Assembly (NCBI RefSeq): GCF_007745175.1
Contig: NZ_CP036271.1
Coordinates: forward strand, 2,066,154-2,130,153
Origin: Caulifigura coniformis
GTDB taxonomy: Bacteria > Planctomycetota > Planctomycetia > Planctomycetales > Planctomycetaceae
Direction: 5' to 3'
DNA length: 64,000 nt
The notes under the pieces were generated by a model. The model was given only the letters and a program-made list of their open reading frames with translations, was not told the DNA's origin and did not search any database. The translations under genes and the position numbers were made by a program. The first letter of the stretch is position 1, and every line of letters begins with the position of its first letter. Shown here piece after piece: positions 40,556-64,000 of the stretch.

Positions 40556-43500
40556 TCATTTCAACGACTGGAGGAACGCGAGCAGGTCGCGCCATTCCTG
40601 GACCGTCATACGGTCAACCAGTTTCTCCGGCATGACGGACGTCTGGACGGGGCGTCGCTCCTCGATCTCGGCCGTCTTGAGCTCGATCGTCTTGCCTTCG
40701 CTGTCGCCGAGGATCGTTTTGCCTTCGTTCTCGTGGACGATCATGCCGGTGAAGACCCGGCCGTCGACGTGGACCATCTGCCAGTTGGTGAACTGGGGTG
40801 AGACTTCCTTGCTGGGTTCGAGGATGGAGCCGATGAGCTTTTCGCGGGTGAAGGTGGCGCCGATTCTGGAGAGGTCGGGACCGACTTTGCCGCCGCGGCC
40901 GTGGACAGTGTGGCAGTTGGAGCAGCCAGGCCCTTTCGGATTGAAAAAGACAAAGTCACCCCGAAGTTCGATTTCAGTCAAGTTGCGTTGCCCTGCCCCT
41001 CTCCAGTCGATCGCAACTGGCCGCTCCGGAGGCTGTCGAAAGTTATTCATCGGAAAGGCGCGACCAGCCCCGAAGATCAACCACCATTGCTGCCCGAGAG
41101 CATCGACGTCCGGCGGTCCTTGGAATCCGGGAACGAACGTACCTGCGGTCTTGAACAACTCGTCCAGGCGCGCGACAACAACGTCGTCGTGACCCAAGCC
41201 ACCACGAAATGCGGTCACCGCCATCTCCGGGGCAGTCGTGGAACTCAAGAGAAAGTCTTTGATCTCCTGATTCCGCGGGTTCGCGACAAAATGACGAATC
41301 ACTCCGAGCAGGGCATTCTGTGGATAGCCGCTCTGCATGGCGGCCATCGCCATGAGGGGCGACAGGGCATCGGCCCCCGTTCGGAATGCGAGAGTCCTGA
41401 TCGCCTCGCGACGAACCGACGGATCCGCATGACGGATCAACTGGTCCAGCAGTTCGATCGAAAGGACCTCGTCATCCGGATCCACCAGCCTCAGCGCCTC
41501 CACCAGCACGGCCGGCGACGCCTTCTCGTCCTTCAGCAGCGGCGCCACATATTTTCCCGCTGGCGTCTTGTCGAAGTCTTTTGGATCCTTCCCATCGATC
41601 ATTTCGAGGGCGGCGATTGTCGAGAGGAAGAGATCGCGATCCATCGGCGATTGGGTGAGACATTTCTCGACGACGGGACGTAACGACTTCATTCGCTGCT
41701 CACCGGCCCATTGGACGGCGGCGCGGCGAACGATCAGATCATGTCGCTTCAGGCCAGCCTCGATCGCTGATTCGTTCGCGGGATCGATCCGCTTGAGGGC
41801 GAGCAGCGCGACGAGACGCACGCGCGAGGAGAGACTGGCGTCGCTGGAGACCAGCTGAACCAGCTTGTCGGCGGGCATCTCCGTGGCGCAATCACGGGCG
41901 AGAGCGCAGAGCCCGAAGGCATCCATTCCGTCGACCGCCGAATTGATCAATTCCACGATCTTCTTCGGAGCCGTTCCCGCGGCCGATCTCAGCAAGGGGA
42001 TGAACGCTTTCACCCCGCCGAGAACGTACATCGGGTCGGCGCCGGCCGGGTCCTTCAGCAGCGCCTGCATCCGCTGCACGGAGGGGGCGTTGTCGAAATG
42101 GGCCATTAGCGTAAACGTCGAATCGAACGGTGCGGGCTTCGGTCCGAAGAGATCGCGCAGCTGGCGCGGCTCGTCCGCCTTTTCTCCCACGACGATCGCG
42201 GCCAGCGCTTCGTACTTCGCCCGTTCGGACGCATCGGCGTCGCGAAGAACGGCCACGTTCTGCAGCCCGTTCAGTTCGCCCAGGCGGCGGGCCGCCAGAC
42301 GTCGCACAGCACCGACTGGCGATTCGAGACTCTGCTTGAGGATGCCGGGCCGCTCTTCCTTCTGAATCGCCGAGAAGTCGGGCCTTCGACGTTCGCCGTC
42401 AACGGCCGAGATGCGCCAGATGCGGCCTTTGCCGTGCAGCTTGTACTCCCGAAGGACCCAGTCGGTGCAGTACATGCTGCCATCGGGAGCGAGGGCGAGG
42501 CCGACGGGGCGGAAGCTTTCACCGCCGACGATGACGGGCTCGGCGACGGATTCGAAGGAAAGGCCTTTGGGCTTCAGGCGGAACACATCGATGCGGTGGT
42601 CGCCCCACGACGTCGCGAACAGATGCCCGCGGTAGTTCTCGGGGAGGGCATCGTGTTCATAGGCAATCACGCCCGAAGGAGCTTCTCCTGTTCCAGCCAC
42701 CATCGGCAGCGTGCCGGGGAGTTCGCCGTTCCAGCTCGTGAAGGGGTGCAGGCCTTTGCGGCCGTTCTTGAAGTGATAGCCGTAGTCGCCGCCTTCGATG
42801 ATGTGGAGCAGGCGGCAGGGGGGACGGCTGTCGGGGTCGTTGTCGACCGAGAACATCCGGCCGAAGGCGTCGAAGCAGGAGGCATGAGGATTCCAGCAGC
42901 CGTTGGCCCAGAAGCGGAACTCCGTGCCATCGGGGCGGAAGCGGTAGACGTGGCCACCCTCATCGTGTTCATAGACGACGGCGCCGCTGCGGTCGCGAAC
43001 CTTGTAGGGCTCGCCGAGGTTTTCGCCCATGCCGACGAACATGTAGCCGACGGCATCAAACGCGAAGCCGGCGAAGCCGTTGTGGGGGTAGTTGCCTTTG
43101 GTGTCGAGTTCGAAGAGGACGGTGCGGCGGTCGGAGACGTCGTCGGCGTTGGTGTCTTCGAGGAGCAGGACCTGGTTCCGCGTGGCGACGTAGACCTGGG
43201 TCGTCTTCGCGAGGGCGGCGGCGTCACCCTGGTCGACGCCCTTGAGACGGATGGGCTTCATCCAGACGGGTCGGACGGCGACGGACATGGTGGCGGTGAA
43301 GCCATCGGCGAAGACCGTGGGTGGTTTGGCTTTGCCGGTTTCGTCAGTGCTGAAGACGAGGATGCGGTCGGAGGGATGGCCGGGGTAGTTCTCGGGTCGG
43401 AAGTGGGTGTTGCACTCGATGGCCCAGACTCGGCCGTGCGAATCGACATCGAGACCGGTGGGCGTCGCGATGAGCGGCTGTTCGGCGAACAGGTCGATCC

Positions 43501-43594
43501 TGATCTTCGGATCGAGCGAACGGGGCATGTCGTCGGCCGCGAAAGCGGTCGCGGCGAAACACAATGCGAGCAACGCGAGACAAACGCAGCGCAT
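40556..43594 (-). CDS. PVC-type membrane-bound dehydrogenase/heme-binding CxxCH protein
   Basis: 1012 aa. Signal peptide MRCVCLALLALCFAATAFA. Beta-propeller-like dehydrogenase part (residues about 25-450: LIATPTGLDVDSHGRVWAIE, GFAGFAFDAVGYMFVGMG, VVYEHDEGGHVYRFRPDG), helical HEAT-like repeats (about 450-850), and a C-terminal cytochrome c-like motif Cys-Ser-Asn-Cys-His in GPGCSNCHTVHGRGGKVGPDLS followed by SILEPSKEVS and DLLAFLQSLK. This domain order (TIGR02604 and TIGR02603 type) is typical of planctomycetes. Likely a periplasmic redox enzyme; the substrate is unknown. Confidence 0.93.
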   Translation of the reverse strand: MRCVCLALLALCFAATAFAADDMPRSLDPKIRIDLFAEQPLIATPTGLDVDSHGRVWAIECNTHFRPENYPGHPSDRILVFSTDETGKAKPPTVFADGFTATMSVAVRPVWMKPIRLKGVDQGDAAALAKTTQVYVATRNQVLLLEDTNADDVSDRRTVLFELDTKGNYPHNGFAGFAFDAVGYMFVGMGENLGEPYKVRDRSGAVVYEHDEGGHVYRFRPDGTEFRFWANGCWNPHASCFDAFGRMFSVDNDPDSRPPCRLLHIIEGGDYGYHFKNGRKGLHPFTSWNGELPGTLPMVAGTGEAPSGVIAYEHDALPENYRGHLFATSWGDHRIDVFRLKPKGLSFESVAEPVIVGGESFRPVGLALAPDGSMYCTDWVLREYKLHGKGRIWRISAVDGERRRPDFSAIQKEERPGILKQSLESPVGAVRRLAARRLGELNGLQNVAVLRDADASERAKYEALAAIVVGEKADEPRQLRDLFGPKPAPFDSTFTLMAHFDNAPSVQRMQALLKDPAGADPMYVLGGVKAFIPLLRSAAGTAPKKIVELINSAVDGMDAFGLCALARDCATEMPADKLVQLVSSDASLSSRVRLVALLALKRIDPANESAIEAGLKRHDLIVRRAAVQWAGEQRMKSLRPVVEKCLTQSPMDRDLFLSTIAALEMIDGKDPKDFDKTPAGKYVAPLLKDEKASPAVLVEALRLVDPDDEVLSIELLDQLIRHADPSVRREAIRTLAFRTGADALSPLMAMAAMQSGYPQNALLGVIRHFVANPRNQEIKDFLLSSTTAPEMAVTAFRGGLGHDDVVVARLDELFKTAGTFVPGFQGPPDVDALGQQWWLIFGAGRAFPMNNFRQPPERPVAIDWRGAGQRNLTEIELRGDFVFFNPKGPGCSNCHTVHGRGGKVGPDLSRIGATFTREKLIGSILEPSKEVSPQFTNWQMVHVDGRVFTGMIVHENEGKTILGDSEGKTIELKTAEIEERRPVQTSVMPEKLVDRMTVQEWRDLLAFLQSLK

Positions 43595-58602: not shown

Positions 58603-61600
58603 ATGCCGTCAAGGAAGAAGCCCACATCCGCCGCCCGTGCCGCCGCGCCCTCGGGCGAAGCAGCCAATGCGCTGGCTCGCGAGCTGTTGGGGCACCTCAA
58701 CTTTTCCAATGGAAAAGAGGACATCGCCTTCCTGGCCGCGCTCAACCGGACGACAGAGTTCCTTCAACCGTTCTCCGCCGCGACCCTTCGTGACTGGCTG
58801 TCTCCCCTGATGGAGACGCTCTCCGCCGAGAACCCGGCGTTCGCCAACATCCAGCAGGCCCGGGAAGTCCTGTCGGTCACGATCGATCACCTCCTTCCGG
58901 CCTATCGCGACTTCCACGCCGACCTCCTGTTCCACCTCGAGCCAGCCGATTTCGAACAGCCGTTCCTTCTGGGACGGATGTTTGAGGCCGTCCTCTCCGA
59001 AGGTGGTCCCTGGGACGAGCGCGACCGCATTGTCAGCGGCGCCATCCGCCGTCTGAATGACTACGTCGGCTACCGCCCCATCGCCGTCCTCGAAAACGGG
59101 CGGAAGATGGAACTCTATCCGCACGAGCGCTTCCGGCCCGTCCCGTTGTACATCGCCGGCGCCGGCGTTGCGGCCGGGAAGTTCCACGATCTCATCGAGT
59201 GCACGCTCCAGCTGCTGCGCGAATCTCCGCCGGACGTCCTCCAGGAAGCCTACCTCGACCTCGACCGGCTCGACGAACTGGCGATCGATGTCCGCGCCCA
59301 CGACCACCTCCACCCGGTCAACAAGCGCACGAACTACATGTTCGGCGAGTGGGACCCACACCGGATCGACCTGGGGGGGCACTATCGCCGATTCGTGATT
59401 CGCCAGATCCTGCTCGACGCCCTGACTGCCTGGGTCGACGGCCCGGACGCCCGCGGCAAACGCGAAGAGCGCCTGTTCGACGCCGCGGCCGCCTTGTGCG
59501 GAACCATGCTGATGGCCTCCTCCGTCAGTGGAGCCGGTCCCGATTCCTTTGATTCCAGCGTGACGCTCTCGTCGCTCCTGCCAACGGTCGCCCGCCGCCG
59601 TGACGAGTTTTACGAGCAGCTCATGACGCGGCTGGAAGGCGCCCGTGCGAAGCGCCTGAAGAGGGAAGCCGAGAAAAGCCAGCAGCCATTCGGCCACGTC
59701 CGCCAGTACCTCAACATGCACCTCGCCGGCTACGGCGCGCGGCAGGTGCAGTACCGTGAACTGGCCTACCTGTACGCCCAGATGGGCTACGCCGACGCGA
59801 GCCGCCAGAAGGCCGCCGCCATTCCCGCCGCCTCGATCCGCTTCGAAACCGAGATCGAATGCCAGATCGGAACGGCCCACCATGAAATTGATCGCGGCCG
59901 CGTTGACGCCGCGGCCGAACACGTGTCCCGCATCCCCGATCTGCTGAATCGCGGAATCGAATGCGGGGCTCTCGTCGACCCCTGGAACATCCTGGGCTTC
60001 ACCGGGCAGTTCGCTCTCTTCTCGTCCCGTGAGGACGCGATTCCCGACAACCGCGTCGAGTCGCTGCTCGATCTCGTCGAAGGCGCCTTCGGCGTTTACG
60101 GACGCACGATGGCCGAAGCCGCGGCTCAGGGCCTTGGCGCCCTCCGCGAGCGGATGCAGGCCGAGTACCGCCGGCTCGTCGAGTGGTGGGACCGCTTCGG
60201 CAGCACGGTCATCGAGGACCTGCCGGAAGTGGTCGGCGACGAGTCGTACCAGTCGGCCCTGCACGTTGCTGAAGCGCTGACCGAATGGCGTGCCGCCGGC
60301 GAGGCCGCGGGAGACATCTCCTTCTGGCGGCAGCATGTCGACCAGTTCCAGTCGGCGCAGGCCTACGCGCAGGTGATCGACGCGCTCCTCGACCGCGAGG
60401 ACTACGTCGCCTCCATGGGCCTCCTGATGCAGTGGCTCGGGCGCGTCGATGAAGTCGGCATGGAATCGTCGGAGCATTCGCTGTTCTCGCTGCTCATCCG
60501 CTGGATGAAGCTGGCGGCCCATGCGAAGGAATCCGAAGACGCACAGTCGCACCGCGTCGCCCTCATCCGCCGCCTGTTCGATTATCTCGAGGCCAACGCC
60601 GAGCAGTTCTGGTCGGTACCGACGCTCAAAGGCGCCGTCGCCCGCGCCAATGATGCGGACGAACTCGACCGCACTGAGCGGCCCGGCCGAAACCGGCCGG
60701 ACGCCGATGACGAAGACGAAACCGACGACGTGTTCCAGGCGGCGTATGAGGACGTCACCTATCGCGACAGCACCGACGACGGCAACTGGGGCGACACGCT
60801 CGAGAACGATCTCGGCTTCCGCAACACCGAGTTTGAACTGATCAACCGCGAACTCGAGCCGCGACTCAAGTTCCTCAACGCGGTCGCGCAGCTCTGGCAG
60901 ATGGCCGCCGTCGCCCTCGCGAAAGAAACGACGGTCCGTCCGCTCGACGAGCAGACCCTCACCGCCGCCGGAAGCTGGCATCAGCAGGCCCGCCGCTGGC
61001 AGAGCGACCTCGCGGAACTCATGCACTCCGTCTGGGCGCACGAGATCGGCGAGACCTCCGGCGACCACGACGCCAACGTCGAATACGACATCCAGCTGCA
61101 GGTGAAGTACTACCTGCTGCATCACATCGTCAGCACGCTGATCAGCCTGCGGAACGCCGAACGTCTGCTGTCCGGCTCGATGCCCGAAACGCTCGCCACG
61201 CCGCGGCCGTCTCAGGATGAGGAACGCCTCGCGGCCGTTTATCGGGCCATCATCCGTCGCGAGCCGGCCGAGGTGCAGAAGCTCCTGCCGGAAGTCGTGA
61301 ACTGGCTTGAACAACACCCGCTGCTGTACGTGCCGCTCGAACATGGTGGAAAGCCCGGCCCGCTTCTGCGCACGCAGGCGCTGCAGTCGGTCGTCCGCTT
61401 CCTGCTCCGCGAACTTCCGAAGCTCGGACTGATCCGCGAGACCTACCACGTCCTGCAGACCGCCTTCCGCATGGAGCGCCGTTATCGCCCTGAAGGCCAG
61501 GCCATCACCGAGTTCGACCGGCTGTTTGATCTCGCGCTCCGCAGCTCGCTGGCCGCTGTCGTGAAATCAGCCCGCACCTGGGAGGAAGTCGGCGAAGACG

Positions 61601-62658
61601 CCGAGGCTCTCATCGAGGCTGTCGGCGAAGTTCTCGACTTCTACCAGAAGCTCTGGATCGACCACAGCCGCACCATGCGGATCTCGTCCGTGGACGGCCT
61701 GCGCGACGCCGAGGACTGGGAAGAACTCGCCGACTTCATCGAGCAGTATGGCTCCGAGCTGTTCCACGCCAGCCAGCTCACCCTCGGCAACGTGCGGGCG
61801 ATCCTCCACAACTCGGTCGACTGGTACCTCGAATATCTCGAAAAGGAGCAGGATCCGCTCCATCCCATGCGTCTCCTGCAGGACATCGAAGAAGGCCGTA
61901 TCGATCGCGAGGAGGCCGCGTGGGCACTCGAAACCATCTACTCGATCGTCGTCGACAAGTTCGACCGGTTCCTCGAATACAACACGACCACCACGCAGTC
62001 CGACTACGGCGAGAATTTCTACTGCCTGCTGGAGTTCCTCCGCGTCGAAGCCGGCTACGACCGCGACGCGTGGCACATGCAGCCACTGATGATCGTCCAC
62101 GAGGTCCTCTGCCGGGCCGAAATGAAGGAAGCGGCCAGGCTCTGGGAAACGACGTACGAAGTGCAGACGGCCGACATCGCCGCGCAGCACCTTGAAGACC
62201 TCAAGGAACTGCAGCAGGAATACGGCATGCGGATGCCGGTGATCGCGGACCATCTCAACCAGCGCTTCGTGAAACCGCTGGCCGTGAACCGGATGGTCGC
62301 CCTGATCCAGCCGTCGGTTGCCGACGCCCGCGAAGGGAAGTTCGATTCCTCGTCGTTCACCGAGCTGTCTCAGGAAATCGATGCGTATCTGAAAGACTCG
62401 TGGGGGTCGGGCATCGACGTCCCCGGCTGGATCCGGACGCTCGACAAGGAAGTCCACGAAGCGACCGATCCCGAAGAGGGGGGCCGGCCCGGCGCGGAAG
62501 CGGACATCCAGCTGCCGGAAATCCTGCTGACCCTCGCCGACTTCCGCGATCAGCTCAAGCGATGGAAAGAAACGGTTCGGTCCAATCGCAGCCGGTCTTC
62601 CGGGGAAACCGGCCGGCGTCCGCCGCGCGGGCGACGTGGCCGGAAGCCTCGCGATTAA
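58603..62658 (+). CDS. 1351-aa protein of unknown function, all-helical repeat character
   Basis: The largest gene of the window, starting MPSRKKPTSAARAAAPSGEA. It lacks a signal peptide and membrane segments and is probably cytoplasmic. The protein is rich in Leu/Glu/Arg/Asp and mostly predicted helical by eye, with units such as YRELAYLYAQMGYADASRQK and FETEIECQIGTAHHEIDRGR that look TPR-like but without a clean consensus. An acidic linker (DADDEDETDDVFQAAYEDV) occurs near residue 705. The tail is basic (SRSSGETGRRPPRGRRGRKP), suggesting nucleic acid or membrane contact. No catalytic motif or known domain recognised. It is followed 31 bp later by the beta-helix gene on the same strand. Confidence 0.75.
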   Translation: MPSRKKPTSAARAAAPSGEAANALARELLGHLNFSNGKEDIAFLAALNRTTEFLQPFSAATLRDWLSPLMETLSAENPAFANIQQAREVLSVTIDHLLPAYRDFHADLLFHLEPADFEQPFLLGRMFEAVLSEGGPWDERDRIVSGAIRRLNDYVGYRPIAVLENGRKMELYPHERFRPVPLYIAGAGVAAGKFHDLIECTLQLLRESPPDVLQEAYLDLDRLDELAIDVRAHDHLHPVNKRTNYMFGEWDPHRIDLGGHYRRFVIRQILLDALTAWVDGPDARGKREERLFDAAAALCGTMLMASSVSGAGPDSFDSSVTLSSLLPTVARRRDEFYEQLMTRLEGARAKRLKREAEKSQQPFGHVRQYLNMHLAGYGARQVQYRELAYLYAQMGYADASRQKAAAIPAASIRFETEIECQIGTAHHEIDRGRVDAAAEHVSRIPDLLNRGIECGALVDPWNILGFTGQFALFSSREDAIPDNRVESLLDLVEGAFGVYGRTMAEAAAQGLGALRERMQAEYRRLVEWWDRFGSTVIEDLPEVVGDESYQSALHVAEALTEWRAAGEAAGDISFWRQHVDQFQSAQAYAQVIDALLDREDYVASMGLLMQWLGRVDEVGMESSEHSLFSLLIRWMKLAAHAKESEDAQSHRVALIRRLFDYLEANAEQFWSVPTLKGAVARANDADELDRTERPGRNRPDADDEDETDDVFQAAYEDVTYRDSTDDGNWGDTLENDLGFRNTEFELINRELEPRLKFLNAVAQLWQMAAVALAKETTVRPLDEQTLTAAGSWHQQARRWQSDLAELMHSVWAHEIGETSGDHDANVEYDIQLQVKYYLLHHIVSTLISLRNAERLLSGSMPETLATPRPSQDEERLAAVYRAIIRREPAEVQKLLPEVVNWLEQHPLLYVPLEHGGKPGPLLRTQALQSVVRFLLRELPKLGLIRETYHVLQTAFRMERRYRPEGQAITEFDRLFDLALRSSLAAVVKSARTWEEVGEDAEALIEAVGEVLDFYQKLWIDHSRTMRISSVDGLRDAEDWEELADFIEQYGSELFHASQLTLGNVRAILHNSVDWYLEYLEKEQDPLHPMRLLQDIEEGRIDREEAAWALETIYSIVVDKFDRFLEYNTTTTQSDYGENFYCLLEFLRVEAGYDRDAWHMQPLMIVHEVLCRAEMKEAARLWETTYEVQTADIAAQHLEDLKELQQEYGMRMPVIADHLNQRFVKPLAVNRMVALIQPSVADAREGKFDSSSFTELSQEIDAYLKDSWGSGIDVPGWIRTLDKEVHEATDPEEGGRPGAEADIQLPEILLTLADFRDQLKRWKETVRSNRSRSSGETGRRPPRGRRGRKPRD

Positions 62659-62689: not shown

Positions 62690-64000
62690 ATGTGGAGCGT
62701 AGGAGTCCGGGCGTTCGGCTGTCTGGCGTCGTTTATGGCAGCGGCAGTGCTGCTGTCTGCGTCACACCTGTCCGCGGCCGAGTACCACGTCGGCCCCGAC
62801 CAGCCGATCAAACGCCTCGAAATGGCCCCCTTCGCACGGCTGCAGGCGGGCGACCTCCTCGCCATCCACTGGCGGCCCGATCCTTACCGCGTGAAGTGGG
62901 TCCTCGCCTGTCGGGGAACGAAGGACAAGCCGATCGTCATTCGCGGCATCCCCGGCCCTGAAGGGCAGCTCCCCGTAATCGAGGCCGACGGAGCGATCAC
63001 CGGCACCGGACTCGACTACTGGAGCGGGCAGCGCGGCCTCATCAAGATCGGAGGCTCAAACATTCCGCCCGATGTCATTCCGGCCCACATCGTCATCGAA
63101 GGGCTGGAAGTCCGCGGTGCACGCCCGGGCCGGAACTTCTTCGGACGCGACGGGCTCCAGGAATACAGCGACGCCGCCAGTGCCATCTACATCGAGAAGG
63201 GCGAGCACATCACCATTCGCAGTTGCCGTCTGCACGACTGCGCCAACGGCTTCTTCACCGCCCCCGAATCGAGCGAGATTCTCGTCGAAGGCTGCCACAT
63301 CGAAGGCAATGGCCTCGAAGGAAGCGGCTTCCAGCATAACAGCTACACAGAAGCCGCCGGCATCATCTACCAGTTCAATCGCTTCGGCCCGTTGCGCGAC
63401 GGCTGCGGCGGCACGAACCTCAAGGATCGCTCGGCCGGAACGGTCGTTCGATACAACATCATCGAAGGGGGCAACCGGCAGCTCGACTTCGTGGAGTCGC
63501 AGGAAGGGGACACGATCAAGACCGATCCGCGTTACCACCAGGCATTCGTCTACGGCAACCTGCTGATCGAACCCAACAACGCCGGCAATCCGCAGATTGT
63601 CCACTTCGGAGGCGACAGCGGGCCGCAGGAAGATTTCCGGCAGGGACCGCTCTGGTTCTATCACAACACGGTCGTCTCGAAGCGGCGCACCAACACGACT
63701 CTGCTCCGTCTCTCGACGCAGCTGCAGAGCGCCGAGGTGTTCAACAACATCGTCTATGTCGAGGCCGAGGGCTCGCGACTGTCGATCCTCGACGAAACCG
63801 GAACCGCCCGCCTGCACCACAACTGGCTGAAGAAGGGCTACAAGGACTGCCACGGAACGCTCGCCGGAACGGTCACCGATTCCAGCAACATCACCGGCGA
63901 CGCTCCCGGCTTCCGCGACGCAGCGCAGCACGACTTCCGGCTCGTCGAATCATCCCCCGCCCGCCACGCGGGACAGCCGCTGCCGAACGCGCTCGCCGAG
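62690..64000 (+). CDS. Secreted right-handed parallel beta-helix protein (3' end outside window)
   Basis: 437 codons to the window end with no stop. The ATG (MWSVGVRAFGCLASFMAAAV) has GGAGG about 6 nt upstream. The signal peptide ends near LSAAEYHV. The mature part shows parallel beta-helix rungs: IVIRGIPGPEGQLPVIEADG, IVIEGLEVRGARPGRNFFG, IYIEKGEHITIRSCRLHDC, ILVEGCHIEGNGLEG, VVRYNIIEGGNRQLDFVES. Such proteins include pectate-lyase-like polysaccharide lyases and adhesins; no catalytic residues can be assigned. It starts 31 bp after the 1351-aa gene and may be co-transcribed with it. Confidence 0.88.
   Translation, partial: MWSVGVRAFGCLASFMAAAVLLSASHLSAAEYHVGPDQPIKRLEMAPFARLQAGDLLAIHWRPDPYRVKWVLACRGTKDKPIVIRGIPGPEGQLPVIEADGAITGTGLDYWSGQRGLIKIGGSNIPPDVIPAHIVIEGLEVRGARPGRNFFGRDGLQEYSDAASAIYIEKGEHITIRSCRLHDCANGFFTAPESSEILVEGCHIEGNGLEGSGFQHNSYTEAAGIIYQFNRFGPLRDGCGGTNLKDRSAGTVVRYNIIEGGNRQLDFVESQEGDTIKTDPRYHQAFVYGNLLIEPNNAGNPQIVHFGGDSGPQEDFRQGPLWFYHNTVVSKRRTNTTLLRLSTQLQSAEVFNNIVYVEAEGSRLSILDETGTARLHHNWLKKGYKDCHGTLAGTVTDSSNITGDAPGFRDAAQHDFRLVESSPARHAGQPLPNALAE

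Follow-up and report, generated by a model that had tools for sequence, protein, structure and literature searches.

A large, predicted helical protein without nameable homology is conserved in most Planctomycetia and may act as a cytoplasmic scaffold

The stretch of Caulifigura coniformis DNA analyzed here (64,000 nucleotides of contig NZ_CP036271.1, positions 2,066,154 to 2,130,153; hereafter, the window, with its first letter as position 1) carries at 58603..62658, on the forward strand, an open frame with an ATG start that encodes a protein of 1351 amino acids (P0001; hereafter, the orphan protein). A first-pass annotation had described this frame as the largest gene of the window and the best candidate there for an undescribed function, and it is indeed the longest of the five open frames of at least 700 amino acids. 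That the gene is real and under purifying selection at the protein level follows from the codon pattern and the dN and dS values against the copy of a congener: over 1346 codons, 216, 133, and 601 differences fall on codon positions 1, 2, and 3, respectively, with 79% amino-acid identity, dN of 0.149 and dS of 0.984 (NG86). A second open frame of 946 amino acids runs antisense over the gene (58609-61449, reverse strand) and is probably a shadow frame caused by the high GC content at third codon positions of the gene (0.83). A scan for promoters and terminators at the locus gave nothing that exceeded chance. The encoded protein is acidic overall (152 K+R vs. 224 D+E) and has no window resembling a transmembrane segment (highest Kyte-Doolittle 19-mer, 1.41), in line with its description as a cytoplasm-type protein; such windows are also few in the family (7 of 91 homologs).

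Since the whole chain was too long, AlphaFold2 models were obtained for two overlapping pieces predicted separately, that is, residues 1-780 (pLDDT 88.7, pTM 0.86) and 600-1345 (pLDDT 87.3, pTM 0.86). The models confirm the predicted character of the protein as almost entirely helical, with two helical arms and an N-terminal domain containing a few strands. The strands of the first piece are only 3-5 residues long (180-184, 225-229, 263-267, 469-471, and 479-481), and the second piece has no strand of at least 3 residues. The modeled N-terminal domain (about residues 18-370; 58654..59712, forward strand, as are all features of the protein below) combines helices with some of these short strands and, in the alignment of 91 homologs, holds the invariant polar residues E225, D229, R231, D234, H237, R242, N244, W250, D251, and R263; R333, Y337, Q361, R367, and N371 are likewise invariant. 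The first helical arm follows (about residues 380-691; 59740..60675) and is loosely TPR/PPR-like by shape alone. The second (about residues 743-1288; 60829..62466) is HEAT/karyopherin-like, again by shape alone, and contains a near-invariant YNTTTTQSDYG element (residues 1126-1136; 61978..62010). No internal duplication between parts of the protein was detected with hhalign (probabilities all <1%).

The two arms are joined by an acidic linker (residues 696-739; 60688..60819) that is predicted to be disordered, its pLDDT being mostly <50 in both models. Its acidity holds in 91 of 91 homologs (net charge -12 in this protein and -25 to -6 across the family, with a median of -14), so this element of the earlier description was well founded. 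Within the linker lies a linear motif, FxAAYExVx[FY]RDSADDGxxG (60733..60792), defined from the 91 sequences, several positions of which are nearly fixed (A714 98%, Y715 92%, D722 98%, D726 99%, and G727 99%). Conserved positions inside a disordered stretch typically point to docking, and we infer such a role for this motif from its conservation amid predicted disorder. Toward the C-terminus, a short modeled helix bears a conserved QLxxW (62533..62565; Q1317 95%, L1318 74%, W1321 70%), after which the protein ends in a basic tail (62575..62655) that differs among clades. The strongly basic tail stressed in the first-pass annotation is real in this species (net +9 over the last 27 amino acids) but clade-specific: net charge is at least +5 in 37 of the 91 homologs and 0 or below in 33, and the tails that follow the QLxxW helix range across the family from strongly basic through neutral to acidic.

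The profile searches gave no clear match to a known family, in agreement with the earlier statement that the protein has no nameable homology. For the orphan protein itself, the best Pfam match had an E value of 1.7 and scored 8.8 bits, well below the required 27; NCBIfam gave no match, a sequence search of the PDB no usable one, and PADLOC and PHROGs, which cover anti-phage defence and phage proteins, none at E values up to 1. Profiles built from 55 aligned homologs reached only E 0.12 and 0.81 at best against the PDB, and a Pfam scan of 55 members for each of the two pieces returned scattered matches, none common to more than 3 members, with the best E values (about 0.001) in single members only. 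The TPR-like helices proposed previously were only partly borne out: Pfam holds no TPR match for the orphan protein itself, and TPR models were matched in the N-terminal part of the 55 homologs by single members only, at E 0.03-0.05 (0.034-0.046). No paper naming the protein was found in the published literature apart from supplementary tables, where an entry as a numbered hypothetical protein may exist.

Comparisons of the predicted fold gave a similar picture. Foldseek against the PDB returned nothing at E ≤0.001 for either piece, and a BFVD fold search with the N-terminal piece gave no match. With VIA, the C-terminal piece reached a best Z of 11.4 (rmsd 15.2, 344 aligned residues) with the karyopherin Kap114 (9b3i), where the helical background is about 13, and the N-terminal piece a best Z of 9.7 (rmsd 6.0, 154 aligned residues) with a designed filament, also within the helical background. 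Because these scores lie within that background, we speak of a solenoid-like shape only and claim no family membership. That is, the C-terminal arm resembles HEAT-type solenoids and karyopherins in shape but differs from them by its below-background Z, its high rmsd, and the lack of a Foldseek match, whereas residues 380-583 resemble TPR/PPR-like solenoids such as that of the SKI complex (7qdz; Z 8.8, rmsd 4.9, 156 aligned residues) but have no Pfam TPR or PPR match and score at background level. No family stood out among the VIA rows, which is not proof of a new fold; those for the N-terminal piece cover residues 381-780 of the model, so that residues 1-380 were barely compared. Large scaffold proteins made of helices are already known as a kind, and this family of them appears to be undescribed.

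The distribution of the gene provides a stronger argument than either the tail or the neighboring gene. A search with the protein among 59 near relatives was positive in 52, comprising all 37 members of family f1 together with 15 of the remaining 22 genomes, and negative in all seven near relatives belonging to family f2, which is probably the Isosphaeraceae. In an even draw across the phylum, 40 of 392 genomes matched, 39 of them inside the class, and the remaining one did not hold up; further phylum draws gave out-of-class matches only at E 0.0003 to 0.005. The candidate relatives outside the class (G265, G067, G173, and G182) were rejected as chance since rescoring revealed short stretches within otherwise dissimilar frames, that of G182 reading as an AraC-type regulator. 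Within the class, a profile of the N-terminal piece was positive in 247 of 297 genomes, 236 of which had exactly one match; the other 11 had 2-3 matched stretches, which may be split genes or second copies. Family f2 is absent from these 247 positives. The 20 negatives listed are all f2 genomes, and the 30 further negatives include at least one genome of family f3 (G494). When 31 f2 genomes were searched directly, only four matches appeared (E 0.28-0.88); the best of them, when rescored, fell in an unrelated frame, and a match in the f2 genome G436 was likewise chance on rescoring. Loci from genomes in the named collection come from Planctomycetaceae and Rhodopirellula-type Pirellulaceae, in addition to unplaced or apparently misnamed metagenome bins.

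Lengths are similar among 98 distinct homologs, with those truncated by contig ends counted. In a FastTree phylogeny of 55 homologs, families f1 (38 rows), f3 (4), and f4 (3) are each set apart from all other rows by a branch with support of 100; f5 and f7 each require two changes, and L120 (f6) forms a very long branch. The tree thus largely follows taxonomy, with family clades as mostly vertical descent would produce them. Given such descent, the absence from f2 is best read as a loss, with a gain of the gene after f2 had split off as the less likely alternative. The orphan protein belongs to the inherited core of the class Planctomycetia, and one whole family lacks it.

The genomic neighborhood is far less constant. 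A secreted beta-helix gene (PF13229; 62690..64000, forward strand, running off the window) starts with an ATG at 62690, 31 nt after the stop codon of the orphan gene, and the earlier observation that it comes next on the same strand is accurate; as a cue to function, however, it is genus-local. By tblastn, among 87 distinct homolog loci with at least 1400 nt of downstream sequence, this gene adjoins the orphan gene only in this genome and its congener, so that conservation of the neighborhood beyond the genus was not borne out, and we rejected the gene as a partner; it is probably not part of the orphan system. More generally, neighbors vary between genera in a simple gene call at 91 loci, and a neighbor on the same strand is found upstream at 32 of 89 loci and downstream at 39 of 88, as expected of a separately transcribed gene without an operon partner. 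The commonest neighbor is a MotA/TolQ/ExbB-type gene (PF01618) with two companion genes. The ExbB-type gene occurs within six genes at 32 of 91 loci, and at 20 of 89 it is directly divergent. These do not track the orphan gene across genomes: a profile of one companion (A3) was positive in 97 of 118 genomes, yet neither this genome nor most of the f3 genomes with the orphan gene contain A3, and partial matches to it occur in f2 genomes without the orphan gene. Therefore, the three genes were rejected as obligate partners. The ExbB-type set is widespread in the class and often divergent from the orphan gene in Planctomycetaceae; on the upstream flank of homologs (e.g., L059:4482-9375, reverse strand), the ExbB-type gene is followed by the two companions, which have no Pfam match and look membrane-anchored.

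Our preferred reading, to which we assign a rough probability of 0.45, is that the orphan protein, a core protein passed on by vertical descent in most Planctomycetia, serves as a scaffold in the cytoplasm, with binding and scaffolding as the inferred part. Under this model, each of the two long helical arms would hold a partner, the acidic disordered linker would serve as a hinge between them, the AAYE..[FY]RDSADDG motif of the hinge and the QLxxW near the C-terminus would serve as docking sites for further partners, and specific recognition would come from the conserved N-terminal domain. We count in favor of this best guess the similar lengths, the single match in most positive genomes, the family clades, the confident helical models, the conserved disordered linker, the scarcity of transmembrane-like windows, and the lack of an operon partner. 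Against it, enzymes and regulators can also contain long stacks of helices, and the many invariant charged residues in the N-terminal domain would be just as fitting for an enzyme; in addition, the two pieces were predicted separately, and 11 of the 247 positive genomes show 2-3 matched stretches. In fact, because of these residues and the poor fold coverage of that domain, we rank an enzyme second, as a possible but doubtful alternative: the N-terminal domain, with its short-strand insert, would be catalytic and of a kind absent from the libraries, and the arms would recognize a substrate or regulate. The dense cluster of polar residues at 225-263, together with the five invariant residues between 333 and 371, is consistent with catalysis, and the domain was barely covered in the VIA rows, whereas the Pfam, NCBIfam, and PDB profile searches found no match, the 91 loci show no conserved metabolic gene neighborhood, and no nucleotide-binding or catalytic motif was recognized on reading the sequence. 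A role in binding nucleic acid or in the nucleoid through the basic tail would fit the net +9 of this species but seems improbable for a family in which 33 of 91 tails carry no net positive charge and the linker and the whole protein are acidic. It is also quite improbable that the protein is one of the membrane-coat-like (MC) proteins, shaping or coating internal membranes. Such proteins are reported from the phylum of planctomycetes and the PVC superphylum (PMC2799638), and alpha-solenoids are abundant in planctomycetes (PMC3837014); the orphan protein shares with MC proteins its large size, stacked helices, and planctomycete origin. However, the MC architecture (PMC2799638) requires an N-terminal beta-propeller followed by a helical domain, whereas the orphan model has no propeller and only its few short strands, no transmembrane-like region was found, and no sequence link to MC proteins emerged. 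Of the C-terminal stacked helix pairs typical of MC proteins, the confidently modeled helical arm (pLDDT 87.3) offers shape matches at background level only.

Alternatively, the protein might organize the budding, dimorphic life cycle of these bacteria as a scaffold at the pole or bud site in cells that divide without FtsZ, and Isosphaeraceae, described in a published survey (PMC5352709) as spherical, stalk-free, and without motile swarmer cells, would have lost it along with that programme. The single absence agrees with this idea, for which it provides just one loss event, and we regard it as a long shot. A part in the flagellum or its regulation is scarcely credible. All 59 genomes positive for flagellin (of 108) carry the orphan gene and none of them belongs to f2, but the joint absence of flagellin and the orphan gene from f2 is a single event, which does not amount to a correlation. 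Further, of the 20 FlhA-negative genomes listed (21 negatives among 148), 18 keep the gene, as do nine of nine listed flagellin-negative genomes outside f2 (29 further negatives are unlisted), and 36 f2 genomes without the orphan gene possess FlhA; these distributions refute a strictly flagellar role. As a separate matter, f2 has FlhA, a component of the flagellar export apparatus, in these 36 genomes, yet no f2 genome is among the flagellin positives (11 f2 genomes are among the listed flagellin negatives); the family may have kept the export apparatus without flagellin. Many flagellin N-terminal domains of the class also belong to open frames that, at about 1000-1300 residues, are much longer than ordinary flagellins (e.g., G379:C1:5308435-5308848 and G460:C3:894628-895041).

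In Planctopirus limnophila, 151 of 748 essential protein genes, about one fifth, are of unknown function (PMC10632474). A protein of 1350 amino acids that is nearly class-wide and mostly present as one match per genome, and that combines an N-terminal domain without a match with a conserved motif in a disordered hinge, offers a concrete entry point to what is peculiar about planctomycetes, and its absence from one family provides a natural comparison. The proposal of the first-pass annotation that this is a candidate for an undescribed function stands as far as the large, helical, cytoplasm-type protein without nameable homology is concerned, whereas the tail and beta-helix cues turned out to be clade-local. 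Finally, elsewhere in the window (40556-43594, reverse strand), a secreted-looking protein of 1012 amino acids carries a cytochrome-c-type CxxCH close to its C-terminus and, on reading the sequence, reads like the planctomycete dehydrogenase-HEAT-cytochrome proteins.
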